A model generated the notes under the pieces. The model was not told where the DNA came from and searched no databases. It saw nothing but the letters and a program-made list of their open reading frames with translations. From Bacteroides sp. OF04-15BH (GTDB lineage Bacteria; Bacteroidota; Bacteroidia; Bacteroidales; Bacteroidaceae), in the NCBI RefSeq assembly GCF_003477995.1, contig NZ_QUEM01000046.1, positions 1-16,166 of the forward strand: DNA of 16,166 bases, in the 5' to 3' direction. Shown in pieces: positions 913-14,176 of this stretch (positions within the stretch are counted from its first letter, which is position 1; every line of letters starts with the position of its first letter). Made by a program: the position numbers and the translations under genes.

Positions 913-2004
913 TTAAACAGACTGTACCTCACGGATACAGGCAATCAGGCGTTCAAAATCTTCAGGATATACATCTCCGATGTTGCCGATGCGGAAGGTA
1001 TCTGCCTGAGAAATCTTTCCCGGATAGATCACGAAACCGCGTTCTTTCAACTTCAGATAGAAAGCCTTGAAATCGAAAGCGGCATCGGGATAATAGAATG
1101 AGGTGATGACCGGAGACTGGTCGGCATCGGGCAGCAAAGTGCGGTAACCCAGACTGCGCATTCCCTCAACCAGCACCTGATGGTTCTTGCTGTAGCGGGC
1201 AAAACGGGCAGCTACGCCTCCTTCTTCTTCCAGTTCCTTCAGGGCCTGCATGAAGGCACGCACCACATGAGTGGGCGAAGTGAAGCGCCATTTTCCATGT
1301 CCCTTTTCCATAGTTTCCCACTGATCGTACAGGTCGAGCGACAGTGAGCGGGCCACTCCCTTGCACTGCTCCAACAGACTGCGACGGGCCAGGATAAAGC
1401 CGAATCCCGGTACTCCCTGAATACATTTGTTGGCACTGCTGATCATAAAGTCGATGCCCAGGGCGGCCATATCAATAGGAACACCTCCGAAACTGCTCAT
1501 GGCATCCACAATCAGCACTTTGTGGTGTTTCTTCACCACGGCGGCAATCTCTGCCAAAGGATTCAGCACACCGGTAGTTGTTTCGCAATGTACCACGGAA
1601 ACATGAGTCACCTCGGGGTGCTGATTCAGATAGTCATCAACCTGTGCCGGAACCACGGCCTGAGTCTCCTCAAACTTCATCAGATCATAGTTCAGATGGT
1701 AATAGTCGGCAATGGTTCCCATACGCTTTCCATAGGCTCCATTGGCTACAACCAGCAGATGATCCTGCGGACGGACAGCCGTTCCCAGAGTGGCCTCAAC
1801 ACAGAAGCTGCCGCTACCCTGCATCAATACGGCGGTGTACTCTTCCGGCTTGCTGGAAGCGATCTCCACAAGTTTCTTGCGAATCACCTCTACAATACCG
1901 ATATTATAATCTTCGTCCCAGGTGCACCAGTCACTCATCATGGCGCTCTTTACGGTTTCGCTGGTTGTCAAAGGTCCGGGGGTCAGCAACAAATAAGGTC
2001 TCAT
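913..2004 (-). CDS. phnW: 2-aminoethylphosphonate--pyruvate transaminase
   Basis: PhnW (EC 2.6.1.37) transfers the amino group of 2-aminoethylphosphonate to pyruvate, giving phosphonoacetaldehyde and L-alanine in the cytoplasm; it is the first step of the phosphonatase pathway. The 363-residue product has the family's length and is a fold-type I PLP enzyme. The N-terminus LLLTPGPL is typical of PhnW. Asp167 in V-D-A-M-S-S-F-G-G should hold the pyridine nitrogen of PLP, and Lys193 in S-S-A-N-K-C-I-Q-G is the expected Schiff-base lysine. [12 protein letters not shown] is close to the PhnW signature and separates it from serine-glyoxylate or alanine-glyoxylate relatives. The ATG at 2004 is well placed, 31 nt after the phnX stop. 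It is the last gene of its operon, directly downstream of the gene for the next enzyme. Confidence 0.96.
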
Positions 2005-2035: not shown

Positions 2036-2824
2036 TTAGTTCATACGTTTGTTAATGGCTTCGATCAATGCCGGGAGTTCTGTAATGTCATCGACCACAT
2101 AATCGGCACCGGCGGCATACATTCTGTGGCGCACCTCTGCCATTTTCTGTTTGCGGTCTTCTGCGCTCAGCTGCAGGAACTCTTCTTCGGTCAGTCCCAT
2201 CTCGTTACTTCCGATGATGGCACCCACAGTCCATACTCCAGCGTTCACTCCTTCCTTGATGTCCGAAATGGTATCACCGTATTTCAGAACCGACATTCTG
2301 GAAGGAACAGCCAGATCGCACATATTCTTATAGATCATGTAAGGATAAGGACGACCGCCCGGCAGACCATCAGAAGTGACACAGTTTTCTGTTTGGTAAC
2401 CCTTAGCGGCAGCAGCCGGGATAACCACATCCATCATTTCACGCGTATATCCGGTAGTGGAACCGATCTTGATGCCCTGTGCACGCAACTGATCCAAAGT
2501 TTCAATCACATGAGGAATCGGAGTGGTGTATTCTTTCAAGGTAGAAAACAGCAGGCGCTGGAAGTCTTCATAACGGCCCTGCACATCTTCTTCATTGTAC
2601 GAACGATGATACAGATCCTCGAAACACTTTCCAATACGAGGCATATCAAAAAGCGCACGGACATGGTCTATCTTGGTCAGTCCCATCGGACGACGGGCTT
2701 CTTCTGCCGTTACCTCGATACCAATCGCACGGAAGCTCTCCAGAAAAGCGGAAACCGGTGCAAAACATCCATAATCAATAGCCGTACCGGCCCAATCCAT
2801 AATCACACATTCAATTTTTTTCAT
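2036..2824 (-). CDS. phnX: Phosphonoacetaldehyde hydrolase (phosphonatase)
   Basis: PhnX (EC 3.11.1.1) cleaves the C-P bond of phosphonoacetaldehyde, giving acetaldehyde and inorganic phosphate. With the start at ATG 2824 the protein is 262 residues, the usual length; an upstream non-ATG extension overlapping the transporter gene is unlikely. It is a HAD-superfamily enzyme. Asp10 in I-M-D-W-A-G-T is the nucleophile, and the second HAD aspartate is replaced by Ala12, which is characteristic of phosphonatases. Lys51 in R-P-M-G-L-T-K-I-D-H-V is the cap lysine that forms a Schiff base with the aldehyde substrate. Y-G-D-T-I-S-D-I-K-E-G supplies the metal-binding aspartates of motif IV. The gene starts 13 nt after the transporter stop and precedes phnW, so all three are co-transcribed. 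Confidence 0.96.
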   Translation of the reverse strand: MKKIECVIMDWAGTAIDYGCFAPVSAFLESFRAIGIEVTAEEARRPMGLTKIDHVRALFDMPRIGKCFEDLYHRSYNEEDVQGRYEDFQRLLFSTLKEYTTPIPHVIETLDQLRAQGIKIGSTTGYTREMMDVVIPAAAAKGYQTENCVTSDGLPGGRPYPYMIYKNMCDLAVPSRMSVLKYGDTISDIKEGVNAGVWTVGAIIGSNEMGLTEEEFLQLSAEDRKQKMAEVRHRMYAAGADYVVDDITELPALIEAINKRMN

Positions 2825-2837
2825 ACGTCTTATATTT

Positions 2838-4196
2838 CTAAATACATTCAACATTCAATTTTTCAGAAGTAAAAGAACCGGCCGACTCCAGCTCTTCGGA
2901 ATTTGTTTTTTTCTGTCGGTTACGGTAATACTGGATATATCCCCAGGAAGCGGCAAAAGCCACACAGCAGAAAATTCCGATATATACCGTCATTTCGTTA
3001 TAGAAGGTATGCCAGTCAATCTGAGCGGCAAAGAATTCCTTGAAGAACAGCAGAAACAGAGTGCCCACATAACCGATAAAGTCTATCGTAATGATGAAGA
3101 AACCCACATTGCCCTTTATCTTGTAACAGGCGATAAAACGCTCGAAAAAGATGGTCTGAAAACTCAGATAAGCAATGTCCAGACACAGAGTCTGCATGAA
3201 GAGCCACGTTGCCGTGGTGAAGGTACCTTCGGGACAACCGGCTATCAGTACCAGAGCACCCATTCCCAAAGTGGAAAGCAACAGCAGAATGCCCAGCACG
3301 GTACGGTGGCTACGGGTGCGGCCCAGCAGGGCAAACACAGCCAGCATAATCAAAGTGGCAATGGCATCGAGGCGGGCAAACAGCCAGGAAGAGATGGTGC
3401 TCACATCGATGATGCACACAATGAAGTCTTCCTTGATGTCGCGCAACACCGTAAGCAGCAGGTTGGCTCCGAAGAGCAGAAGCAGCAGAGGCATAAACTT
3501 GCGGAACAGGCTCATACGCTCTTTTCCGTTAAGCGTATAACGCGGCGAACGGGCGGCTATATCGGCTGGAGTAGGATCGGGAAAGCGGGTCATGACCCAT
3601 CCCAGGAAACTGAGCAACGGAAAGGCGATGGCTCCGATGCAGGCAGGCATCCAGAACTCACTGACTCCAAGAGTATTCAGGGTATAGAGTCCCACGGATT
3701 TGGCCACTCCCGAACTGAGCGCCATGCTCACTCCCATGATGCTGGCCAGAAAGTCTGTTGTGCGCCGGCCTTCGAGAAAGCTGAAAATCACGCCCCACAT
3801 ACAGCCCAGAGACAGACCGTTGAAGAACAGAGCCCCGACATTATAAGGAGCAGGCAACAAGGCGAAAAGCAGCAGAGAAGCCTCGGACAAGGCTGCCGAA
3901 CCGACGATAAACTTCAAACGGTTCTCGGGTTTCAGTTCGGAAATGAACTTGATGCCCAACATCTTGGCCATGACATAGCCCACCAACTGCACGATGCTGA
4001 CCGCAATCTTATAGTCCATACCAAATACTTCCTGTCCGGCAAACTCGGCTGCGGTAAAGGGCTTGCGCAACGCATAGACCAGAGAGTAAGACAGCAGAGC
4101 GGTTCCTCCGGCCCACAGGATAAACATCCAGTCCGGCATGCTTTCCTTACCAGAGATCTGACGACCGAACTGATATAATTTCTGATTCATTTTCAT
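2838..4196 (-). CDS. DUF5690 family membrane transporter, probable phosphonate importer (module A)
   Basis: This 452-residue protein has about 12 hydrophobic segments and the DUF5690 pattern, an MFS-like family common in Bacteroidetes. By eye, two blocks resemble the glycerol-3-phosphate transporter GlpT and other organophosphate:phosphate antiporters. Y-A-L-R-K-P-F-T-A-A (Arg44) matches GlpT Y-L-V-R-K-N-F-A-L-A (Arg45), and L-L-T-V-L-R-D-I-K-E-D-F (Arg252) matches the region of GlpT Arg269. These two arginines hold the phosphate in GlpT, so a phosphonate or phosphate-ester substrate is plausible. It is first in the operon with phnX and phnW, so AEP uptake is the simplest role. I chose ATG 4196 because the open frame further upstream begins at TTG 4220, inside the promoter box. 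The N-terminal half carries E-L-K-P-E-N-R and L-E-G-R-R-T-T-D-F loops shared with the module B paralogue. Confidence 0.85.
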   Translation of the reverse strand: MKMNQKLYQFGRQISGKESMPDWMFILWAGGTALLSYSLVYALRKPFTAAEFAGQEVFGMDYKIAVSIVQLVGYVMAKMLGIKFISELKPENRLKFIVGSAALSEASLLLFALLPAPYNVGALFFNGLSLGCMWGVIFSFLEGRRTTDFLASIMGVSMALSSGVAKSVGLYTLNTLGVSEFWMPACIGAIAFPLLSFLGWVMTRFPDPTPADIAARSPRYTLNGKERMSLFRKFMPLLLLLFGANLLLTVLRDIKEDFIVCIIDVSTISSWLFARLDAIATLIMLAVFALLGRTRSHRTVLGILLLLSTLGMGALVLIAGCPEGTFTTATWLFMQTLCLDIAYLSFQTIFFERFIACYKIKGNVGFFIITIDFIGYVGTLFLLFFKEFFAAQIDWHTFYNEMTVYIGIFCCVAFAASWGYIQYYRNRQKKTNSEELESAGSFTSEKLNVECI

Positions 4197-4217
4197 TCGT
4201 TTTTTTGATTGACACTG

Positions 4218-4225
4218 CAAAAGTA
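4218..4225 (-). promoter_or_regulatory. -7 box of the transporter-phnX-phnW operon
   Basis: CAAAAGTA on the plus strand reads TACTTTTG on the minus strand, an exact match to the Bacteroides -7 consensus TAnnTTTG. It lies 21 nt upstream of the ATG at 4196, giving a predicted leader of about 15 nt. I do not see a matching -33 TTTG, which suggests dependence on an activator. Confidence 0.65.
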
Positions 4226-4425: not shown

Positions 4426-5316
4426 ATGGACGATTTGAAAATCATATACGAGAGAATCTCTTTCCTCCGCCAGAAAGGAGTCAAGATGAAGGATATGGCC
4501 GAAAAGGCACAGGTGGCATCCAGTGTATTCTCGGCCCTGTACTCCACCGTTCTTCCTACCTATCTGAAACACGTTAAAGAAGGTATGGACAGCCAGGAAG
4601 CTCTGGACGAGGCTCTGGTGTGGGTAAACAATGTTTCGAAAAAGAAACTGCTCAGCACCATGGGAGCCATCAAGGAGGCTCTGCTCTCGATGGAACTGCT
4701 CGACACCGAAGTTACAGAAGGAAAAGACTGCTCTTTTCTCCGTAGCCTGCGCGACAATTCGCAGGATGCCTGCAAGCGCATCCATCATCTGAGCGGCATT
4801 TATATGAGTTACAGCGTGTCGTCCTCATCGCCGGCCTTGAAGATAGAACCTTACCTCATCACCCCTTCATCACAAGGAAACTGGGTGGAGGTGGTCCACA
4901 ACAATGCGTACGGCAGTACCCACCGAGGTATGGCTCTGATGAACGGAAGCTCGCATCTGTATCTGCTCTTCAACGAACAGAACCCGCCTCAGCTGGCTCT
5001 GTTTCATATCTGCCTGAAAATTCCCATGTACGAACGCCCGCCGTTCATGAAGGGAGTTTACACCTGTTTCGACTATAACTATAACCCGATAGCCCGGCGC
5101 ATTCTGTTCGTGAAGCATTCCGACAGTACTTCTTCCGAGGATTTTGCCAAAATAAAAGGAGAACTGAAACGCTTTGAGGAACTCAGCGAACAGGAAAAGA
5201 AATATTATGAATATACCTGCCGGCCGGAAGACATCATCCGTATGTGCAATATTCCGTCGCCGCGCATGACTGACGAGGATCTGGTCATCGAAAAGAAAAT
5301 ACTGGAACTTCAATAA
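4426..5316 (+). CDS. Predicted transcriptional regulator of module A (N-terminal HTH, unknown C-terminal domain)
   Basis: This 296-residue cytoplasmic protein has no membrane segment. Residues about 14-41 read like a Cro/XRE-type helix-turn-helix: R-Q-K-G-V-K-M-K-D-M-A-E-K leads into A-S-S-V-F-S-A-L-Y-S as candidate recognition helix. A V-N-N-V-S-K-K-K-L block follows at 67-75. The larger C-terminal region (about 115-270) has L-K-I-E-P-Y (138-143), L-F-N-E-Q (181-185) and D-Y-N-Y-N-P-I-A-R-R (216-225), which I cannot assign to a known ligand-binding fold. The same blocks occur in the module B paralogue, and each protein is encoded divergently from a DUF5690 transporter operon. The natural reading is a local regulator sensing a phosphonate or its breakdown product. 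DNA binding is inferred; an RNA-binding or other role is possible. Confidence 0.6.
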   Translation: MDDLKIIYERISFLRQKGVKMKDMAEKAQVASSVFSALYSTVLPTYLKHVKEGMDSQEALDEALVWVNNVSKKKLLSTMGAIKEALLSMELLDTEVTEGKDCSFLRSLRDNSQDACKRIHHLSGIYMSYSVSSSSPALKIEPYLITPSSQGNWVEVVHNNAYGSTHRGMALMNGSSHLYLLFNEQNPPQLALFHICLKIPMYERPPFMKGVYTCFDYNYNPIARRILFVKHSDSTSSEDFAKIKGELKRFEELSEQEKKYYEYTCRPEDIIRMCNIPSPRMTDEDLVIEKKILELQ

Positions 5317-5377: not shown

Positions 5378-6490
5378 TCAGAAGATATATTGCACACGGG
5401 CCTGAGGAACAAAATAATTGTTCTTATAGGCCGGGTTGCAATGCTCTCCTACCCAGACATAACTTCCGCTTATCTTGAAACCGATATAGGCATTCAGATA
5501 AAAATTCAGACCAACAGACAGGTCTTTTTCTTCTCCTCCCAAGATGCCGGCACCGGTATCGTTCATATTGGTATAATTGAATCGTGCGGTCAGTTCCAAA
5601 GCGCGGTCACTCGCCGGTCTGCCCGGAACCGCAGAAGCTGCATCATAGCTGAATCCTCTGCCCAGCAGCAGATACGAAGCCTGCGCATAGCCTCCATGAG
5701 GCTGATAATTCCGATCACCGGACAGACAGTAACGGTTCAGATAATATTCTCCCTGAAGCAGATAGCGCGGACCGGTGACGAGAGCCTCCAACACTCCCTT
5801 AAACTCTTTCCGGGGAGCTCCGATACCGGCTGCAAGCAAGGGCTCGGAAAACATGGAAGTCACTCCTGCCGCCGAAAGTTCCTTATTATAGTCTTTCTGA
5901 TTTACAGGTGTCGTACGGAAAGAAAAGGCTCCTCCGAAATGCAGCAGATGGTCGTTTGCCCGTTGCCGGCGCCACACCGCACGCGACGTGGAAACCAAAG
6001 AGTTTCGCTGGTTCTCTCCAATCTTGTTGATGTCATTATAGGTATAGATACCGCTGGCCAGATAAAAGGCCGGTTTCTGAAAATGCCAGGTGACTCCCAA
6101 CTTACGGCTGTCGGTAAAAGCCAGTACCGAGGTGGCCGACTGGTGAAAACGGAGATCGGCCGTACTGATCAGCATATCCATGGAGAACGGGTCATAGGCA
6201 TTACCGAGCGCCAGCGTATGGCTTCCCCATGTGGCTTGCAGCAAAAGGTCCTTGATAGCGACCTTTCCGCCTCCCAGACCAATATCGGCTTTCATTTCCA
6301 TATTCTTATATCCGGCTTTAAAGCCCACCCGGAAATCTTCCAACCGGTAATAACCCTGTGCCTTCTGATCCTGAAAGGAAGCTACCGAAGCATCCAGAAG
6401 CGCCCGCGAACGGAACTTCAACTTGAGGGCATCCTGTGCCTGCAAGGTCAGTGTGGCACAACATGCCAGCAGCAAAAGTCCCTTTCTCAT
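5378..6490 (-). CDS. Outer-membrane porin, phosphate-selective porin O/P type
   Basis: This 370-residue protein starts with a signal peptide (cleavage probably after residue 18, T-L-Q-A) and ends V-Q-Y-I-F, an aromatic C-terminus typical of outer-membrane barrels. Alternating hydrophobic strands run through the sequence. The block G-N-A-Y-D-P-F-S-M-D-M-L (96-107), followed by S-T-A-D-L-R-F and later S-R-K-L-G-V, matches the signature of the Porin_O_P (OprP/OprO) family, whose founding members pass phosphate or polyphosphate. A Cys at position 10 is inside the signal sequence and is not a convincing lipobox. Its ATG overlaps the etfA stop by 4 nt (6487-6490), so translation is coupled and it belongs to module B. 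The likely role is outer-membrane entry of the anionic substrate used by the module. The substrate itself is inferred. Confidence 0.75.
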   Translation of the reverse strand: MRKGLLLLACCATLTLQAQDALKLKFRSRALLDASVASFQDQKAQGYYRLEDFRVGFKAGYKNMEMKADIGLGGGKVAIKDLLLQATWGSHTLALGNAYDPFSMDMLISTADLRFHQSATSVLAFTDSRKLGVTWHFQKPAFYLASGIYTYNDINKIGENQRNSLVSTSRAVWRRQRANDHLLHFGGAFSFRTTPVNQKDYNKELSAAGVTSMFSEPLLAAGIGAPRKEFKGVLEALVTGPRYLLQGEYYLNRYCLSGDRNYQPHGGYAQASYLLLGRGFSYDAASAVPGRPASDRALELTARFNYTNMNDTGAGILGGEEKDLSVGLNFYLNAYIGFKISGSYVWVGEHCNPAYKNNYFVPQARVQYIF

Positions 6491-7701
6491 ACACCCAGTT
6501 CGTTTAAGATCTGCATCATTTTAGGCAAAGCCTCCTCTACAGGAGCCACCCATCCGTAATCGGCAATGCGGAAAATGGGCGCATTGCTGTCGGGGTTGAT
6601 GGCAATGATTCTTTTGGCTCCGGTAATGGCGGCGGTATGCTGAATCTGTCCGCTGATGCCAATGGCCACATACAGATCGGGGGCAATGGTATGTCCGGTC
6701 TGCCCTACTTGTCGGGAAGCATCTATCAGATTGGCTTCTACTGCCGCACGTGATCCGGCCACAGCGGCTCCTATACGCTCGGCCCAGGCCTCAATCTCGG
6801 CCACGGTTTCCTTGTTCTTCACTCCACGGCCGATACCGATAATCACCCGGCTCTGGCTCAATGAAGCGGTCTGACAACCTTCATCTTCTTCGTGAATCAC
6901 AGAGATACGTTCGTCCGGACAGAAGGTATAGTCTTCATGACGGATCACCTCTCCGGAACGCATCCTGTCGGGCTCCTGAGCCTGCATCACGCCGGGACGG
7001 ACCGAAGCCATCTGAGGACGGTGGTGCGGTGTGACAATTGTAGCCATGAGATTTCCTCCGAATGCCGGACGGACCTGCTGCAGCAATCCGCTCTCGGTAT
7101 CCATCCGCAATTCCGTACAGTCTGCCGTCAGACCGGTATGAAGCAGAGCAGCCAGACGGGCCGACAGACCTCTTCCGCGCACAGTGGCTCCCACCAGCAA
7201 CGCGGCAGGCTTGCATTCACGGATCAAATCGCAAGCCACCCGGGCATAGTTCTCTTCAATAAAGGTTTCCAGACCGACACGATCCACCAAATGAACCGTA
7301 TCTGCTCCGTAGGCAATCAGATCTGCTGTCATCGGCTCCAACTGATGTCCCAGCAACATGGCGGCAACACGCATGCCGGACTGATCGGCCAACCGGCGGG
7401 CAATACCCAACAGTTCGTAAGTCACGGCCGCAATCTGACCCTGACTGTGCTCGGCCAAAACCCAGATTTCGGCTGCAGTCTGTTGCTCCTCGGTCTGAGT
7501 TTCCGTATTTTCCTGAATGGACAAAGCCTCAGACGGACAGTTCTGCACGCAGCTGCCGCACAGACGGCAGGCTTGCGGATTGATTTCCGGACCATCATTC
7601 ATCTGTATGGCCTGAAAGGCACAAGTTTCGGCACAGATGCCACAGGCGGTACACAGGTCCGTATTTACCTGAAGTGGAAAAGATATTTTATTTGAATTCA
7701 T
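6487..7701 (-). CDS. etfA: Electron transfer flavoprotein alpha subunit with N-terminal 2[4Fe-4S] ferredoxin domain
   Basis: EtfA forms a heterodimer with EtfB, binds FAD and passes electrons from a flavin dehydrogenase to further carriers. The 404-residue protein is longer than a plain EtfA because it starts with a bacterial-type ferredoxin domain: Cys17, 20, 23, 27 and Cys45, 48, 51, 55 each form C-x2-C-x2-C-x3-C, enough for two [4Fe-4S] clusters. An acidic, glutamine-rich linker (about 63-77) leads to the ETF N-terminal domain. The C-terminal FAD domain has G-R-G-V, V-G-Q-T-G, L-Y-V-A-I-G-I-S-G-Q-I-Q-H and A-I-N-P-D-S-N-A-P-I-F, all expected for FAD binding. Ferredoxin-fused EtfA is known from the caffeyl-CoA reductase complex (CarE) of Acetobacterium. 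The reading frame extends to a TTG at 7707, but ATG 7701 is the better start, 15 nt after etfB. Confidence 0.92.
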   Translation of the reverse strand: MNSNKISFPLQVNTDLCTACGICAETCAFQAIQMNDGPEINPQACRLCGSCVQNCPSEALSIQENTETQTEEQQTAAEIWVLAEHSQGQIAAVTYELLGIARRLADQSGMRVAAMLLGHQLEPMTADLIAYGADTVHLVDRVGLETFIEENYARVACDLIRECKPAALLVGATVRGRGLSARLAALLHTGLTADCTELRMDTESGLLQQVRPAFGGNLMATIVTPHHRPQMASVRPGVMQAQEPDRMRSGEVIRHEDYTFCPDERISVIHEEDEGCQTASLSQSRVIIGIGRGVKNKETVAEIEAWAERIGAAVAGSRAAVEANLIDASRQVGQTGHTIAPDLYVAIGISGQIQHTAAITGAKRIIAINPDSNAPIFRIADYGWVAPVEEALPKMMQILNELGV

Positions 7702-7716
7702 GATCAAGATTTTTGT

Positions 7717-8490
7717 TTAAGGATTGATAATCGTGTTCAAGGTCAGCGAGAACTGTTCTCCGCTGTTGATCCAGGAAATCTCTTTGGTGTATTCGGGTAC
7801 ATGAGTAGACACCACGCGAGTGGGCGAAGCCATCAGGCCCACATGAGCGGGATCCAGTCCCAGATCCTTTTCATTCCAAACGACAATCTCCTGTTGCATG
7901 GCTCTGCGCCATCCCTCCAAAGTAGGACTTTGCAGTTCGGCGGCATCGCGTCCCACCATGATGGCGCAAGGCAAAGCCACCTGAAGCACTTGCTGGAACT
8001 GCTCCATCTTTTTACAGACACAAACACCCTGAGGCATCACCGATTCGAAGTGACTGAAGGAAGTGACCTGGGGAATATCCAGATGACCGGCTACTTCCGG
8101 ACCGACTTGAGCCGTATCACCGTCAATGGCCATCTTGCCGAAGAAAAGCATGTCATAGTCACCGATTTTGCGTACAGCCTCAGCCAGAATCAGACTGGTA
8201 CACCAGGTATCACTTCCGGCAAAGGCGGCCGAAGAGAGCAGAATGGCTCTGTGAGCTCCACGCTGTAAAGCTTCACGCAGTACGGTCTGCGCCGATGCCG
8301 GTCCCATGCTGACCGCTACCACCTCGGCTCCGGTCTGGCGACTCAGATTCACGGCAACCTGCAAGGCATACAAATCATCCGGATTCGTCTGGCTCATGGC
8401 CGAAGAGCGTTTCAGAGTTTTCGTTACGGGATCAATGCCCACTTTAGTTGACAGGGGCACCTGTTTCAGAAAAACGATATATCTTTTCAT
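7717..8490 (-). CDS. etfB: Electron transfer flavoprotein beta subunit
   Basis: This is the partner of the ferredoxin-fused EtfA. With ATG 8490 the protein is 257 residues and begins M-K-R-Y-I-V-F-L-K-Q-V-P, matching the usual EtfB opening M-K-I-x-V-x-x-K-Q-V-P. A second ATG at 8502 (M-K-K-T-M-K-R) is possible, while the further upstream extension starts at GTG and overlaps the dehydrogenase gene. T-N-P-D-D-L-Y-A-L (35-43) and A-I-D-G-D-T-A-Q-V-G-P-E-V-A (121-134) are the conserved nucleotide-binding blocks, where housekeeping ETFs bind AMP and bifurcating ETFs bind a second FAD. Sequence alone does not let me say which type this is. The gene lies between the FAD oxidoreductase gene and etfA, which suggests that the oxidoreductase is the electron donor. 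No acyl-CoA dehydrogenase gene is nearby. Confidence 0.93.
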   Translation of the reverse strand: MKRYIVFLKQVPLSTKVGIDPVTKTLKRSSAMSQTNPDDLYALQVAVNLSRQTGAEVVAVSMGPASAQTVLREALQRGAHRAILLSSAAFAGSDTWCTSLILAEAVRKIGDYDMLFFGKMAIDGDTAQVGPEVAGHLDIPQVTSFSHFESVMPQGVCVCKKMEQFQQVLQVALPCAIMVGRDAAELQSPTLEGWRRAMQQEIVVWNEKDLGLDPAHVGLMASPTRVVSTHVPEYTKEISWINSGEQFSLTLNTIINP

Positions 8491-8524
8491 TGTTTTCTTC
8501 ATTAAATGTTCGGTATTCTTGTTT

Positions 8525-9754
8525 CTATCCTCCTTTTTTGTTGGAACGTGCATCGGCACATCTTTTCTGGAATTCCACGGTAAAAGGATCTACTTCTCCG
8601 AAACGGTCCGGAGCAAACAGGGCAGGATCTACAAAAGGAGTCTCTCCCAAAATCATTTCGGCAGCCAGACGTCCCATACCTCCTCCGGCAGCCACTCCAC
8701 CGCCACAGCATCCGGTCACGGTAAACAAACCACGATGCTGTTTAAAGCCTCCGATGATGAACTTGGCATCGGGTACATAGCAGGAAGGACCGGCCATATA
8801 ATGGGCAATGCCCAGCGTGTCGATATCCCGCAGATAGGGTTTCAGCAAAGGAGCGCACTCATCCAGGATTTTCCATTTTGCTTCGGCACGGAAGTCAAAG
8901 TCCTCCAGTTTATCGGTCAGTGTCTGCGGGTCGAACGGCTGGCATTCGCTTTCGCGAAGTCCGATAATCAGGGAGCCTACATCCGAACGGGTAAAGGCGC
9001 GTGCATCGGGAATTACCGTGAAAGGATGATTGGCCGGGAAGCGCTCCGCATCGGGATCAGAAATCCAGAAATGACTTCTTACGGGAGTAAAAGGCAAACC
9101 GATGCCCAACGGACGCATCAGCAGATTGGCCCATGAACCGGCTGCATTGACCACCACCGGAGCCTGAATCTTCGTTCCGTCACACAGTATGACACCTTCC
9201 ACCGCACCGTCGGCTGTCACCGCTATTTCACGTACCTTGGTATTGGTTTTCAGTTCCACACCCAACTTCTGGGCTGCCTTGGCGTAACCGCTGCACAGCA
9301 GAGCCGAGTCAATAAAAGCATCTGTGGGCATATACAAGGCAACCTGCACCGCCTCTTCATTGATCCAAGGCAACAGTTCGCGAACACGCTCCTGACCGAT
9401 CCGCTCATTGGCAATGCCAAAACGGTTGGCGGCCTGCTCCAGAGCTTCCACTTCGCGCAGAGAAGCCTCGGAAGATGCGATGGTAATGCTGCCGCACTGC
9501 TGCAATCCCAATGACTCGCCAAGCAGCGCTTCCATCTCTTCAATACAATCGTAGGTTTCCTGCACCATCTCCATCAGAGCCGGTTTGGTGCGTGCTCGGG
9601 TGAGCAGACAGGCTGCACGGGCTGATGCCTGCGATGCAATGTCGTTGCCATCCAACAACAGGATATTGCCTGCGCGGCGTTTGGCCAACTGGTAGGCTGT
9701 GGCGCATCCAAGCAACCCGCCTCCCACAATAATCATATCATACTGGTTTTTCAT
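8525..9754 (-). CDS. FAD-dependent amine dehydrogenase/oxidase of the DAO (glycine/sarcosine oxidase) family
   Basis: This 409-residue flavoprotein oxidises a C-N bond or a related C-H bond. The N-terminus I-I-V-G-G-G-L-L-G (8-16) is the Rossmann FAD motif, L-L-D-G (33-36) ends the second strand with an acidic residue, and V-V-N-A-A-G-S-W-A-N (201-210) is the second FAD motif. The C-terminus has the DAO pattern F-I-I-G-G ... T-G-C-C-G-G-G-V-A-A-G-G-G-M-G-R-L-A-A-E, then P-A-L-F-A-P-D-R-F. The length fits glycine, sarcosine or D-amino-acid oxidase relatives and is too short for GlpD or two-domain dimethylglycine dehydrogenases. No clear site for covalent flavin attachment is visible. It is encoded directly before etfB and etfA, so it probably acts as a dehydrogenase handing electrons to ETF. 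The substrate is unknown; an N-substituted aminophosphonate is my favoured guess from context. Confidence 0.85.
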   Translation of the reverse strand: MKNQYDMIIVGGGLLGCATAYQLAKRRAGNILLLDGNDIASQASARAACLLTRARTKPALMEMVQETYDCIEEMEALLGESLGLQQCGSITIASSEASLREVEALEQAANRFGIANERIGQERVRELLPWINEEAVQVALYMPTDAFIDSALLCSGYAKAAQKLGVELKTNTKVREIAVTADGAVEGVILCDGTKIQAPVVVNAAGSWANLLMRPLGIGLPFTPVRSHFWISDPDAERFPANHPFTVIPDARAFTRSDVGSLIIGLRESECQPFDPQTLTDKLEDFDFRAEAKWKILDECAPLLKPYLRDIDTLGIAHYMAGPSCYVPDAKFIIGGFKQHRGLFTVTGCCGGGVAAGGGMGRLAAEMILGETPFVDPALFAPDRFGEVDPFTVEFQKRCADARSNKKGG

Positions 9755-9782
9755 CTTATTCCTTATTTATTATATATATGAA

Positions 9783-11108
9783 TCAAATCAATCCGTATTG
9801 AGAATCCAAAGTACATTCTTCTACTTCCTCTTTTCGTTTCTTGTCATTTGTCATCTGGTATCTTCTGTAAATCAGGATTCCTGCAACACTGAACAGTACA
9901 GTGCCCAAGATACCGACGGTCATGGCCATTTTGTTGAACAGGGCAAACCACTCCAGATCAATACGCAGCATCTCTTTGATGGAGAGGAGCGACACGGTTC
10001 CCACATAGCCTATAAAATCAATAATCGCGATGAAGAATCCTACATTTCCCTTGATCTTGAAGCAGGCAATAAAACGGTCAAAGAAGATGGTCTGGAAAGT
10101 CAGATAGGCAATGTAAAGCGAAAGACTCTGTACAAACAGCCAGACAATAGGCGAAAGATCCAGAGTTTCATAATTGGCCGATACATAAGTCATCGTCAAG
10201 CAGCCCGCAATAACCAGAAACATCAGACACATCAAAGCCTTGATATTGCTGCGGAAGAAGACAAACAGTCCGAAGATACCCAGAATAATCAGTGTCACCA
10301 CGGTATCCACCTGTGCGAACAACCAGGAAGACTGTCCCGACATATCCAGAATGTTCACCAGAAAATCTTCTTTAATATCACGAAGCACCAGCAACAGGAA
10401 ATTACCGATAAACAGCAAAGACAGGATGGGTGCATATTTCCGGAACAAGGCTACGCGTCCCTTATGATCCAGGATCACCCGTTCATTTCGCAGCTGAATA
10501 TCTTCGGCTGTGGGATGCGGCAGACGCTTGAGCATATATCCCATAAAGATGAGCAACGGCAATGCTACAGCACCGATCAGCGCCGGCATCCAGAAAGCAT
10601 CAATCTGAAGATCGTTGATCACAAAGAGACCGAAACTCTTTGCCAGTCCGGAACTGAACACAATACTTACTCCCAACAGGCTGGCCAGCATATCCGTAAT
10701 CTTACGTCCTTCGATAAAGCTGAAGATCACGCCCCACATACAACCCAAAGAAAGTCCGTTGACAAACATGGCCAGAGCGTTGTAAGGAGCGCTCAGCAGT
10801 CCGAAAAAGAGCAAGGCCACCTCGGCCAGAATCGCAGAAGAAACGAAAAAACGGAAACGCTTTTCCCGTTTCAGCTCGGAAATGATCTTGATGCCGAAGA
10901 ACTTGGCTACCAGATAACCCAGAATCTGAATGGTAGTCACCGCCACCTTATAATCGATTCCGAAAAAGTCCATTCCCTGAAAGGAAGCCGCTGTATAAGG
11001 TTTGCGGAGCGCATATACGAGCGAATAGGAAAGTAAGGCTGCCCCTCCGGCCCAAAGTATCAGAATCAGTTCTGAAAGATTCTTGTTTTTTGCAATCTGT
11101 TTCATCAT
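9783..11108 (-). CDS. DUF5690 family membrane transporter, probable organophosphonate importer (module B)
   Basis: This is a 441-residue paralogue of the module A transporter, alike along the whole length, with about 12 hydrophobic segments. Shared blocks include L-S-Y-S-L-V-Y-A-L-R-K-P (Arg35), N-G-L-S-L-G-C-M-W-G-V-I-F-S-F, S-S-G-x-A-K-S, V-L-R-D-I-K-E-D-F (Arg243) and I-K-G-N-V-G-F-F. The two arginines correspond to the GlpT phosphate-binding arginines by eye, so an anionic phosphorus compound is the likely cargo. The paralogues differ in several loops and at the N-terminus, which suits related but distinct substrates. The gene is first in its operon, 28 nt upstream of the FAD oxidoreductase gene. 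Two adjacent ATG codons (11108 and 11105) could each be the start. That it imports and does not exchange or export is inferred from its position with catabolic genes. Confidence 0.83.
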   Translation of the reverse strand: MMKQIAKNKNLSELILILWAGGAALLSYSLVYALRKPYTAASFQGMDFFGIDYKVAVTTIQILGYLVAKFFGIKIISELKREKRFRFFVSSAILAEVALLFFGLLSAPYNALAMFVNGLSLGCMWGVIFSFIEGRKITDMLASLLGVSIVFSSGLAKSFGLFVINDLQIDAFWMPALIGAVALPLLIFMGYMLKRLPHPTAEDIQLRNERVILDHKGRVALFRKYAPILSLLFIGNFLLLVLRDIKEDFLVNILDMSGQSSWLFAQVDTVVTLIILGIFGLFVFFRSNIKALMCLMFLVIAGCLTMTYVSANYETLDLSPIVWLFVQSLSLYIAYLTFQTIFFDRFIACFKIKGNVGFFIAIIDFIGYVGTVSLLSIKEMLRIDLEWFALFNKMAMTVGILGTVLFSVAGILIYRRYQMTNDKKRKEEVEECTLDSQYGLI

Positions 11109-11352: not shown

Positions 11353-12261
11353 ATGGATAAACTGATATTTCTCTATGAACAACTGAAAAAAATCCGTGAA
11401 TCGGGAGTCAAGGTAAAAGACATATCCGAGGAAACAGACATTGCCTCCAGCGTACTGTCTTCTCTTTATTCATCGGTGCTGCCGGCTTATGTGAACATGG
11501 TTGCTGCCGGTGAAGATGCCGACGAGGCATTGGACAAGGCTCTGCAACAGGTAAACAATGTTTCCAAAAGGAAACTGATGGGCTGTCTGGACGATCTTCT
11601 GGAGAAACTGGCTCATTTGAAACCCAAAGGAAACCTTACGAAGAGTCAGGAACATTCTGTTTTTCATGATCTGGAAAAGGAGGCAGCGCGTTATGTGCAT
11701 CATGCCGGTGCCTATACCGGACTGTATACAGCCTACAGCCGTTCGTCGTTTTCCGACGGACTGAAAGTGGAGCCTTATCAGATAGCCTCTTTGGCTGAAG
11801 GCGAACTGATGCCACGCGTGTATTGTCAGAGCATGAACGGAGAATATTATACCGGTACCGGCATGTTCTCTCCCTTCCAGACCGGTTATCTGATGTTCAA
11901 CGAACAGAAGAAACTGCAAGTAACCCTCAAAGTGGTTTATCTGCAACTGCCTGTTCTGGAACATCCGGCACTGATCAAGGGTATCTACATGACGCATGAC
12001 TACAACCGGAATCCCATAGCACGGCGGGTAGTACTGGTGCGCCAGGGTGATGAAATCCCTCTGGATGAATTCGCCCAACTGAAAACTCAGGTGATCCCGA
12101 AAAATGATATCCCGACCGAACTGAAACCTTTTTATGACTATACGTGTCAGGAAAATGATGTCATAAAAAGTATCATGCTGGTTTCCCCGCAAATGAATAT
12201 GGAGGAACTGGCAGAAGAGAAGAAGATGCTGCGCTTGCTTTCTTCTTCCACTAAAGAATAA
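11353..12261 (+). CDS. Predicted transcriptional regulator of module B (paralogue of the module A regulator)
   Basis: This 302-residue soluble protein is alike along its length to the regulator encoded at 4426-5316. In the first 46 residues I count 24 identities, including G-V-K-x-K-D, A-S-S-V-x-S-x-L-Y-S and V-L-P-x-Y, which form the candidate helix-turn-helix and the segment after it. V-N-N-V-S-K-x-K-L, L-K-x-E-P-Y, F-N-E-Q and N-P-I-A-R-R-x-x-x-V are also kept. The middle part (about 145-190) is more divergent, which would suit a changed effector. The protein ends in a short charged helix with E-E-K-K-M-L. The gene is divergent from the transporter-FAD oxidoreductase-etfBA-porin operon and should control it and possibly itself. 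I do not know a named family for the C-terminal region. Confidence 0.6.
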   Translation: MDKLIFLYEQLKKIRESGVKVKDISEETDIASSVLSSLYSSVLPAYVNMVAAGEDADEALDKALQQVNNVSKRKLMGCLDDLLEKLAHLKPKGNLTKSQEHSVFHDLEKEAARYVHHAGAYTGLYTAYSRSSFSDGLKVEPYQIASLAEGELMPRVYCQSMNGEYYTGTGMFSPFQTGYLMFNEQKKLQVTLKVVYLQLPVLEHPALIKGIYMTHDYNRNPIARRVVLVRQGDEIPLDEFAQLKTQVIPKNDIPTELKPFYDYTCQENDVIKSIMLVSPQMNMEELAEEKKMLRLLSSSTKE

Positions 12262-12568: not shown

Positions 12569-13207
12569 TCAGAGCAGTTCTTCAAGTGACGGCATCAGCG
12601 CCACATGAGGATAAGCCTGCAGCTCCTCGCGGGTGGTCATGCCATGCAGCACTCCGGCAAAATCCACTCCGGCGGCACGTGCTGTCTGCGCATCCACCAC
12701 ACTGTCGCCCAGATAAAGCACCTCATCGGCCGCCACCTTCAGACGGTCCAGAGCTGCCAGCAGTCCTTCGGGCGAAGGCTTGTGCGCCCGGACATCCTCT
12801 CCCCCAATGACCACATCCAGAAAATCGTCGCCCAGATAACGGGACAACAGATCCAGAATACGGTAGCGGTATTTTGTGGAAATGATGCCCAGCTGTGCTC
12901 CCTGCTCCTTCAGGCTGCGCAACACCTTCAGGGTTTCGGGAAAGAGCACCGTGTTGGCAGTCATGTGCACATCCGCGGCCTTGACATATTCCGCCTTGTA
13001 GGCAGCCAGCACCGTCGGATCGCTCACGCCGGTGAGCAGGGCAAACGATTCCTCCAGAGTCAGACCGATGGTGCGTTTGATCTGCATTTCGGAAATGCCC
13101 TGATAATCGTGGTTATCGAGCACGATGCGAAAGCACTTTACGATTCCTTTTGACGAATCGGCCAACGTATAATCAAAGTCAAACAAATAAGCTTTATATT
13201 TCTTCAT
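12569..13207 (-). CDS. HAD-family phosphatase, phosphoglycolate phosphatase-like
   Basis: This 212-residue cytoplasmic protein is a HAD hydrolase with a helical cap, of the Gph/beta-phosphoglucomutase-like group. Motif I is L-F-D-F-D-Y-T-L-A-D-S-S, with Asp10 as nucleophile and Asp12 as acid/base. Motif II is I-I-S-T-K (Ser110), motif III is Lys143 in A-H-K-P-S-P-E-G, and motif IV is L-G-D-S-V-V-D (167-172). Unlike PhnX it has the second aspartate and lacks the cap lysine block, so it should hydrolyse a phosphate ester, not a C-P bond. Phosphoglycolate is the usual family annotation, but the real substrate could be another small phosphate. I chose ATG 13207: the upstream ATG at 13225 would lie only about 2 nt from the predicted transcript start. 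It has its own promoter, so a link to the phosphonate modules is not indicated. Confidence 0.85.
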   Translation of the reverse strand: MKKYKAYLFDFDYTLADSSKGIVKCFRIVLDNHDYQGISEMQIKRTIGLTLEESFALLTGVSDPTVLAAYKAEYVKAADVHMTANTVLFPETLKVLRSLKEQGAQLGIISTKYRYRILDLLSRYLGDDFLDVVIGGEDVRAHKPSPEGLLAALDRLKVAADEVLYLGDSVVDAQTARAAGVDFAGVLHGMTTREELQAYPHVALMPSLEELL

Positions 13208-13233
13208 AATCTCTGTTGTTTCCATTCCGGCTA

Positions 13234-13241
13234 CAAAGATA
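13234..13241 (-). promoter_or_regulatory. -7 box of the HAD phosphatase gene
   Basis: CAAAGATA on the plus strand reads TATCTTTG on the minus strand, an exact TAnnTTTG match 26 nt upstream of ATG 13207. It favours that start over the ATG at 13225. Confidence 0.6.
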
Positions 13242-13310
13242 CGAAAATCCTTTAAAACACATGTCAGTCATTTTTCATGAGGCAAGAAAAGGAAATCAAA
13301 AATAAATCCA

Positions 13311-13318
13311 TAAATTTG
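13311..13318 (+). promoter_or_regulatory. -7 box of the potassium channel gene
   Basis: TAAATTTG matches TAnnTTTG exactly and ends 33 nt before ATG 13352. An in-frame upstream ATG at 13277 lies before this box, so it is unlikely to be used from this promoter. Confidence 0.6.
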
Positions 13319-13351
13319 CAACCATTCGTCATCAGAAAAACAAATCAGAAT

Positions 13352-14176
13352 ATGGATTCAAAACTTTATCCTCCACGCATGGCAGAGCTGGAAAAAGGCT
13401 ATAAATTAGTTTACGGAAAGATTCACGAGCAGCTGAAGCGAAAATGGTTCCAATACACCGAACTGTTTTTCATCGTTGGCTCCATCGCTTCGATCATCTA
13501 TAGTTCGTTTGAAATCTCGGCTCCCTTCCGGGCCCAGTTGTTTCTTTTCAACTATATAGCCTCTTTTGTATTTACCATAGAATATGCCCTGCGCCTGATT
13601 TCCGCACCGATGCAATATCCCAACAAAAGGGGATGGCAGGCCAGACTGAAATATGTCTTTTCATTCTATGGCATCATTGATTTTGTGGCTATCCTTCCTT
13701 TCGTGGTCATCTACACCTATCAGGACTCACCACATCTGCATCTGGTGGTACTGGCCTATATTCTGATTATCTTCAAACTGATCCGCTATTCGCGCTCGTT
13801 CCGCCTGATCGGTGAAGTGCTTCATGCTGTGCGCGAGGAACTGGTGACCGCCTATACGGCCTGCGGCATCATGCTCGGTTTCTTGGGCATCCTGATGTAT
13901 TATATCGAACGGTACGCACAGCCGGAAGCGTTTGCCAACATCGGCGACGGATTCTGGTGGGCCATTGTGGCTTTCACCACGGTGGGCTACGGCGACATCT
14001 ACCCAATCACCCCGTTGGGACGTCTGCTCAGCAGTCTGATCAGTCTGATCGGCATTGCCATGATTGCCATCCCTACCGGTATCATCAGCTCGGCTTTCAT
14101 GAACATGATGCTGGACAAACGGAAAGAAAGAGAAGAAAAAGACAAGGAAAAAACTGATTCCAAAAACAATCTATAA
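13352..14176 (+). CDS. Voltage-sensor-type potassium channel subunit
   Basis: This 274-residue inner-membrane protein has the six-segment layout of a voltage-gated potassium channel. S1 lies at about 36-52, S2 at 63-83, S3 at 103-123 and S4 at 131-152. In S4, Lys142, Arg145, Arg148 and Arg151 are spaced every third residue (K-L-I-R-Y-S-R-S-F-R), as in true voltage sensors. S5 covers about 166-186, followed by the pore loop with filter T-T-V-G-Y-G-D (209-215) and S6 (about 226-250) with I-P-T-G-I. The C-terminus is a short, highly charged K/E-rich tail with no RCK (TrkA-N) domain. Four subunits would form the pore. The start at ATG 13352 (M-D-S-K-L-Y-P-P) fits the promoter; a 25-residue upstream extension is in frame. 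A lipoprotein gene follows 12 nt after the stop. Confidence 0.93.
   Translation: MDSKLYPPRMAELEKGYKLVYGKIHEQLKRKWFQYTELFFIVGSIASIIYSSFEISAPFRAQLFLFNYIASFVFTIEYALRLISAPMQYPNKRGWQARLKYVFSFYGIIDFVAILPFVVIYTYQDSPHLHLVVLAYILIIFKLIRYSRSFRLIGEVLHAVREELVTAYTACGIMLGFLGILMYYIERYAQPEAFANIGDGFWWAIVAFTTVGYGDIYPITPLGRLLSSLISLIGIAMIAIPTGIISSAFMNMMLDKRKEREEKDKEKTDSKNNL

Follow-up and report, generated by a model that had tools for sequence, protein, structure and literature searches.

A putative PbfC-type amine dehydrogenase encoded with its own electron-transfer flavoprotein in gut Bacteroidales, a probable anaerobic entry to the phosphonatase pathway

The contig NZ_QUEM01000046.1 of Bacteroides sp. OF04-15BH (16,166 nucleotides, analysed as a whole and called the window below) contains two minus-strand gene modules, A (4220-913) and B (11108-5378), each with one divergent regulator-like gene. 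Module A has the order DUF5690 transporter-PhnX-PhnW, and module B has the order DUF5690 transporter-DAO-EtfB-EtfA-Porin_O_P, in which a flavin adenine dinucleotide (FAD) enzyme of the DAO fold is followed by both subunits of an electron-transfer flavoprotein (ETF). Judged from sequence and gene context, module B is probably an anaerobic entry to the phosphonatase pathway, with the electrons leaving through a dedicated ETF.

The DAO gene of module B (8525..9754, minus strand; PF01266, 220.3 bits) encodes a putative PbfC-type FAD amine dehydrogenase, a single DAO domain of 409 aa. Further along the same strand are EtfB of the predicted bifurcating type (7717..8490, in an open reading frame that extends to 8559; PF01012, 111.4 bits), EtfA with an N-terminal ferredoxin domain (6487..7707; PF01012 154.5 bits, PF00766 (ETF_alpha) 100.1 bits and two Fer4 stretches) and a Porin_O_P outer-membrane protein (5378..6490; PF07396, 63.1 bits against a cut-off of 20.9). 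The start of EtfB is probably the ATG at 8490 or 8502, as homologues align from about residue 24. With the start at 8490, the gaps in module B are 28, 34 and 9 bases and etfA overlaps the porin gene by 4 bases, as in an operon. An earlier note on this DNA had listed the same gene set (DAO flavoenzyme, EtfB, ferredoxin-fused EtfA, porin and transporter), and both positions and Pfam families were confirmed. Its description of the transporter as “organophosphate-type” was not, since this protein (MFS_B, of the major facilitator superfamily, MFS) matched no Pfam or NCBIfam family besides DUF5690.

For the comparison with other genomes, one genome per species was scanned, which gave 20 relatives whose DAO shares 60-81% identity with that of the window. 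The scan was queried with peptides of the window enzyme, so the loci it found belong to close relatives, and there is kinship among the 20 genomes themselves. Locus flanks of up to 10 kb were fetched, some of them ended by a contig end. Besides, we used an order sample (393 Bacteroidales genomes), a family sample (251) and a phylum sample (395), all centred on Phocaeicola plebeius (G002), a DAO-bearing genome chosen for this position.

To identify the flavoenzyme, we ran a translated plasmid search, in which the window DAO matched a protein of plasmid pAB510a of Azospirillum sp. B510 with 39.8% identity over 100% of the length, while the other 29 listed of 920 records reached at most 30.0%. 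The B510 record has no annotation; its genes around the protein, assigned by comparison, are PhnW (52% identical to the window PhnW), PhnX (38%), then the DAO itself, then a class-III aminotransferase. These neighbours fit the PhnWX, PbfA and PbfC cluster described in PMC10590968, so the B510 protein was taken as PbfC by its neighbourhood rather than by a letter-by-letter match to the published accession. When the Azospirillum protein itself served as the query against plasmids, just 7 records were reached, which may be an effect of the low-complexity filter. According to PMC10590968, PbfC converts N-methyl-2-aminoethylphosphonate (N-methyl-AEP) to phosphonoacetaldehyde and disfavours 2-aminoethylphosphonate (AEP) about 400-fold; it reduces O2 very poorly, and what serves it as acceptor is described as unclear, with a quinone or a carrier protein as possibilities. 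PbfC is again called an FAD dehydrogenase in PMC12366243, where the terms electron acceptor and flavoprotein do not appear. The earlier note had pointed to FAD oxidases acting on N-methylated AEP; the kinship holds through PbfC, but PbfC is a dehydrogenase with an unclear acceptor and not an oxidase (PMC10590968). The two enzymes are alike in the DAO fold, the 40% full-length identity and the adjoining phnW and phnX genes, and both are expected to be O2-independent. They differ in that genes for EtfB and a ferredoxin-fused EtfA accompany the Bacteroidales enzyme, while the 21 kb around B510 pbfC gave no ETF match.

Identity of the window DAO rises to 44% among 120 listed PbfC-like proteins, and it is 28.6-30.0% to dimethylglycine dehydrogenase (DMGDH)-like proteins and one other DAO row. 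A tree was built with 29 of these 120 proteins, and the rows L018 (without one stretch) and L054 (the same protein as P0121) were dropped from it; PbfD1, DMGDH-like proteins and one other DAO row served as the outgroup, with PbfB and PbfD2 left out. It turned out that the Bacteroidales proteins form their own clade (support 100/100) on the PbfC-like side. The DAO group of the window and PbfC also have invariant residues in common, including the ARSxK tail. The predicted model of the DAO gave Foldseek matches to glycine/sarcosine oxidase and related folds, and as its mean confidence (pLDDT) is 73.9 with weak stretches, we make no active-site claim from it. An assignment as PbfD1 was rejected (TIGR03364, 55.7 bits, below the cut-off of 285.1).

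In the phylum sample, 3 of 395 genomes had a DAO match (G002, G004 and G537). The G537 run comprises an HD-domain oxygenase relative (208.6 bits, just under the cut-off of 214.6), PhnA (495.8 bits; cut-off 407.55), PhnY (665 bits; cut-off 635.65), PhnW, a PbfC relative with 36% identity to the window enzyme and a DUF5690-like transporter. It indicates that PbfC relatives and a DUF5690 transporter accompany phosphonate genes beyond the close relatives of the window too.

The phosphonate genes of the window lie in module A, where PhnX, the phosphonoacetaldehyde hydrolase (2036..2854, minus strand; TIGR01422, 341.7 bits, cut-off 220), precedes PhnW, the 2-AEP:pyruvate transaminase (913..2004, minus strand; TIGR02326, 579.5 bits, cut-off 400.8). 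At E<=0.001 the PhnX model matched all 14 control genomes, none of them over the cut-off, and only above-cut-off matches were therefore counted. On this count PhnX is present in all 20 DAO genomes (lowest score 321.9 bits; best other match 50.7 bits), and PhnW adjoins it in every one. The background is low: in the order sample, PhnX occurs in 12 of 393 genomes (about 3%) and DAO in 3, all within the 12 and one being the sample centre, while in the family sample all 9 DAO genomes fall within the 22 of 251 that have PhnX. The chance figures are 5.3e-11 for 9 of 9 within 22 of 251 and, with the centre of the order sample excluded, 7e-4 for that sample; they take no account of kinship and serve as a guide only.

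Gene arrangement points the same way. In L019 and L020, the most divergent of the 20 loci, all genes stand in one co-directional run, MFS-PhnX-PhnW-DAO-EtfB-EtfA, with a single DUF5690 transporter, and genome G031 has the run MFS-PhnX-PhnW-DAO up to the contig end. In G833, PhnX-PhnW and MFS-DAO-EtfB are divergent neighbours, and in three further loci (L003, L008 and L011) both modules are adjacent in orders unlike that of the window. Besides, 16 of the 20 DAO genomes have a DUF5690 gene in the 1.5 kb that flank PhnX. The link of module B to phosphonates is well supported. The core idea of the earlier note, an O2-free oxidation of an aminophosphonate with electrons passing to ETF and the product to PhnX, gains support from gene context and kinship, namely PhnX in 20 of 20 DAO genomes, the single all-gene runs in some of them and PbfC as the closest characterised enzyme. 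The bypass of PhnW that it proposed would hold for an N-methylated substrate only, as PhnW stays beside PhnX in every DAO genome.

EtfB and EtfA are directly downstream of DAO in 20 of 20 relatives, so this gene association is not chance. The best match of EtfA in PDB is CarE (6fah_A, 305 bits; LctC 256.3, human 120.9), and that of EtfB is CarD (6fah_B, 166.4 bits; human EtfB 56.7). The ferredoxin domain of EtfA contains two CxxCxxCxxxC cluster motifs. The beta-FAD motif DGDTAQVGP occurs in all 21 EtfB sequences, with Gly kept at the Gly123 position, and the SPT motif is likewise found in 21 of 21. The Arg of EtfA at N5 of the beta-FAD (R205 of LctC; RPAFGGN) is present in all 20 readable rows; L007 and L020 were represented by their largest open fragments, and the L007 fragment is without that stretch. 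The beta-FAD motif is said in PMC9232219 to be absent from non-bifurcating ETFs, and the canonical ETF of Fusobacterium has Phe in place of its Gly (PMC12630350). From these sequence features the module B ETF looks like the bifurcating (CarDE/LctBC) type. In the NAD(H) motif of EtfB, RXFXG, F and G are conserved in 21 of 21, while the Arg itself is seen in 7 of 21; P takes its place in 11, K in 2 and, in the window, A. For LctB, a change of three residues of this motif together showed that it is needed for NADH reactions (PMC9232219). As side observations, the EtfA genes of L007 and L020 are each split between two reading frames, and the DUF5690 transporter of L020 has an in-frame stop; assembly error or decay could account for these breaks.

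Where the electrons go was then considered at the genome level. Two models of ETF-quinone oxidoreductase (ETF-QO), PF05187 and PF21162, matched 0 of the 20 relatives' genomes (controls positive 3 of 14 and 2 of 14, respectively), and the known quinone route via ETF-QO was rejected for these genomes. The bifurcating kind of ETF seen here makes a plain ETF-to-quinone route unlikely. The ETF as acceptor, as the earlier note had it, is suggested by gene linkage. RnfB, which could exchange electrons between ferredoxin and NADH, was matched in 17 of 20 genomes, most matches spanning half of the model and near its cut-off. EtfA was matched twice in every one of these genomes. The module B EtfA frames are 400-433 aa, the two broken ones excepted, while the other EtfA is a frame of 341-352 aa located 1.0-1.9 kb from the only acyl-CoA dehydrogenase match (E<=1e-10). 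As that EtfA is near the sole acyl-CoA dehydrogenase, the module B ETF looks like a dedicated partner of DAO.

The arrangement can be compared with known systems. CarCDE, the caffeyl-CoA reductase of Acetobacterium woodii (6FAH), provides the closest solved relatives of both ETF subunits, and CarE is likewise a two-cluster protein. The catalytic subunit of CarCDE, CarC, is related to acyl-CoA dehydrogenases, whereas the partner here would be a DAO-fold amine dehydrogenase. Oxidation of an amine is expected to have too positive a potential for the direct reduction of NAD+, and lactate, the donor in LctBCD, is in the same way expected to be too positive for NAD+ alone. The electron-confurcating LctBCD (7QH2; PMC9232219) has the beta-FAD motif, SPT and the N5-contacting Arg in common with the window, but its dehydrogenase is of another family and the Arg of its NAD motif is not kept in the window. 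Its EtfA differs too, as PMC9232219 gives one ferredoxin cluster for the EtfA of lactate dehydrogenase-EtfAB and two for CarE, the number found here. The mitochondrial dimethylglycine and sarcosine dehydrogenases resemble the proposed system as amine dehydrogenases of the DAO fold that feed an ETF (PMC12630350); they use a canonical ETF and ETF-QO, whereas the window enzyme is a single DAO domain and the ETF-QO models found nothing in the genomes of the 20 relatives.

Taken together, these data suggest the following pathway. Porin_O_P and the DUF5690 permease would import an N-alkylated aminophosphonate, most likely N-methyl-AEP. By analogy with PbfC, the flavoenzyme would convert N-methyl-AEP to phosphonoacetaldehyde and methylamine, and PhnX of module A, by its established family function, would split phosphonoacetaldehyde into acetaldehyde and phosphate, with PhnW acting in parallel on plain AEP, as is established for its family. 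The reduced flavin would be re-oxidised by the co-encoded EtfAB and not by O2, a step that the linkage in all 20 relatives suggests and that would fit the poor O2 use expected of a PbfC-type enzyme. Finally, since EtfAB resembles CarDE and LctBC and has the beta-FAD motif and a ferredoxin domain, its electrons would probably be joined with those of reduced ferredoxin and passed to NAD+ (confurcation), which is the least certain step. That the operon encodes an electron-confurcating amine dehydrogenase in this full sense, which oxidises a secondary-amine phosphonate and reduced ferredoxin and sends both streams to NAD+, is a tentative proposal whose chances we put slightly below even.

Several observations weigh against this pathway or limit it. 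For the NAD+ step, the Arg of RXFXG is missing in the window and in 13 of the 20 relatives; among the 120 listed nearest EtfB homologues (7904 matches in total) it is found in 79, with F and G in all 120. No EtfA or EtfB match (E<=1e-10) was found in the 21 kb of the B510 record with PbfC (L054) and no ETF genes in the 19 kb around the PbfC relative of G537, so PbfC relatives can use something else. In the DAO tree, the split of PbfC-like and Bacteroidales rows from the outgroup is supported by 84/99 only, and the nearest sister is not settled. Besides, 13 of the 22 PhnX-bearing genomes in the family sample are without DAO, which makes DAO accessory, and both modules lie within the fetched flanks in only 5 of 20 loci, PhnX being outside the flank in the other 15, where some flanks are contig-ended. 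The missing Arg also favours another fate of the electrons, in which the enzyme and substrate are the same and the ETF, without confurcating, is a plain two-electron carrier whose recipient is some other flavoprotein (the acyl-CoA dehydrogenase, for example) or an unknown quinone reductase. Such carriers have precedents, as the Fusobacterium ETF couples lactate oxidation to butyryl-CoA formation (PMC12630350) and the non-bifurcating EtfAB of C. propionicum is close kin of bifurcating ones (PMC9232219), and a possible recipient exists, with one acyl-CoA dehydrogenase match in each of the 20 genomes. In all 20 genomes, however, a separate EtfA lies near this dehydrogenase, all 21 EtfB sequences retain the DGDT Gly that is missing from the canonical ETF of Fusobacterium, and the ETF-QO models have no match in the 20 genomes to offer for a quinone route, so we regard a plain carrier as possible but rather doubtful.

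The substrate has to be weighed in the same manner. We think it unlikely that plain AEP, or some aminophosphonate besides N-methyl-AEP (N,N-dimethyl- or hydroxy-AEP, for instance), is the substrate of DAO. Its identity to PbfC is only 40%, and related enzymes do take such compounds, PbfD2 oxidising AEP and PbfD1 dimethyl-AEP (PMC10590968); but with PhnW beside PhnX in 20 of 20 genomes an oxidation of AEP by DAO would be redundant, and the roughly 400-fold discrimination of PbfC against AEP argues in the same direction. It is far less probable still that the substrate is a non-phosphorus amine (sarcosine, proline or dimethylglycine) and the proximity of phosphonate genes incidental. Annotation alone would lead there, as the best sequence match in PDB is dimethylglycine dehydrogenase (103.8 bits), the top NCBIfam models are N-methyl-tryptophan, glycine and sarcosine oxidases, all below cut-off, and automatic naming has labelled several PbfC-like proteins in the databases as 4-methylaminobutanoate or sarcosine oxidase. 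Against this stand the co-occurrence with PhnX in every DAO genome over a 3% background, the DAO genes in runs with PhnX-PhnW, and the identity to PbfC-like rows, which exceeds that to DMGDH-like and other DAO rows.

The uptake genes of module A have relatives in module B. MFS_A, the proposed AEP importer of module A (2838..4220, minus strand; PF18943, 410.1 bits), and MFS_B, which from its context may import an N-methyl-aminophosphonate (9783..11108, minus strand; PF18943, 439.8 bits), are 53% identical, while the regulator-like RegA (4426..5316, plus strand; placed by gene order in relatives) and RegB (11353..12261, plus strand; a putative role) share 37% identity. With these identities the modules look like a duplicated uptake/control unit with different enzymes. 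In the MFS tree (43 rows passing the length and score limits), 18 of 19 DAO-neighbour rows, the Bacteroidales module-B copies, form one clade (support 100 by the Shimodaira-Hasegawa-like approximate likelihood ratio test, SH-aLRT), and G537 supplies the remaining row; the two copies from fused runs that entered the tree fall outside the module-B clade. The regulator tree (26 rows under the same kind of limits) separates the module-A and module-B kinds as the MFS tree does. DUF5690 is not named in the open-licence literature searched.

RegA and RegB have no Pfam or NCBIfam match. The model of RegB has a helical N-terminus and a beta-barrel of eight strands (mean pLDDT 75.4; predicted template modelling score, pTM, 0.57), and a Foldseek comparison with PDB gave no match at E<=0.001, the best ones being small beta-barrels at E 0.008 or worse. 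RegA homologues are divergent to DUF5690-phnX-phnW in records of Bacteroides finegoldii (L065) and Parabacteroides distasonis (L066). The two proteins may represent a new family of regulators that sense a ligand and control the uptake of aminophosphonates. The records L065 and L066 are filed as plasmids, and L066 also bears chromosomal-looking genes, e.g. dapB. RegB-like genes (47-48% identity) at L013:20067 and L014:8733 are located downstream of module B and not divergent to the transporter. The promoter pair TTTG/TAnnTTTG had no match in the two intergenic regions scanned.

Some genomes depart from the common arrangement. In G019 (L018 and L074), neither module shows a DUF5690 match within the stretches read, and PhnX, PhnW, DAO, EtfB and EtfA are present. 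In the order sample, L075 and L077 (G138 and G350) and L076 (G403) have a more distant PhnX (35-38% identity) with no adjoining DUF5690, and in two of them a PhnW match is about 3 to 4 kb away. G997 of the family sample has two above-cut-off PhnX genes on separate contigs. Beside the modules, at 12569-14176, the window encodes two proteins that are ordinary by sequence, one a hydrolase of the HAD family (PF13419, 140.6 bits) and the other similar to ion channels (PF00520, 93.2 bits).

In conclusion, some gut Bacteroidales appear to carry a PbfC relative together with its own electron carrier, which would allow O2-free oxidation of N-methyl-aminophosphonates. PbfC homologues in AEP clusters have already been reported for the Fibrobacteres-Chlorobi-Bacteroidetes (FCB) group in PMC10590968, whose main text has no word beginning Bacteroid; the new part is the PbfC variant with a dedicated ETF, and in the open-licence literature, judged by titles, we found none that pairs a bifurcating ETF with a dehydrogenase of aminophosphonates or amines. 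As PMC10590968 describes the acceptor of PbfC as unclear, the ETF linkage in all 20 relatives offers a named candidate. The same paper describes the PhnWYA route, for which N-methyl-AEP is no substrate, as compatible with life under anaerobic conditions and the PbfD2 route as restricted to aerobic ones; a PbfC-ETF route, if true, would make N-methyl-AEP available to anaerobes. Should the ETF confurcate, flavin-based confurcation would gain a DAO-fold catalytic subunit in place of acyl-CoA, lactate or FixCX partners, and such a complex would release the phosphorus of N-methyl-AEP under the anoxic conditions of the gut.

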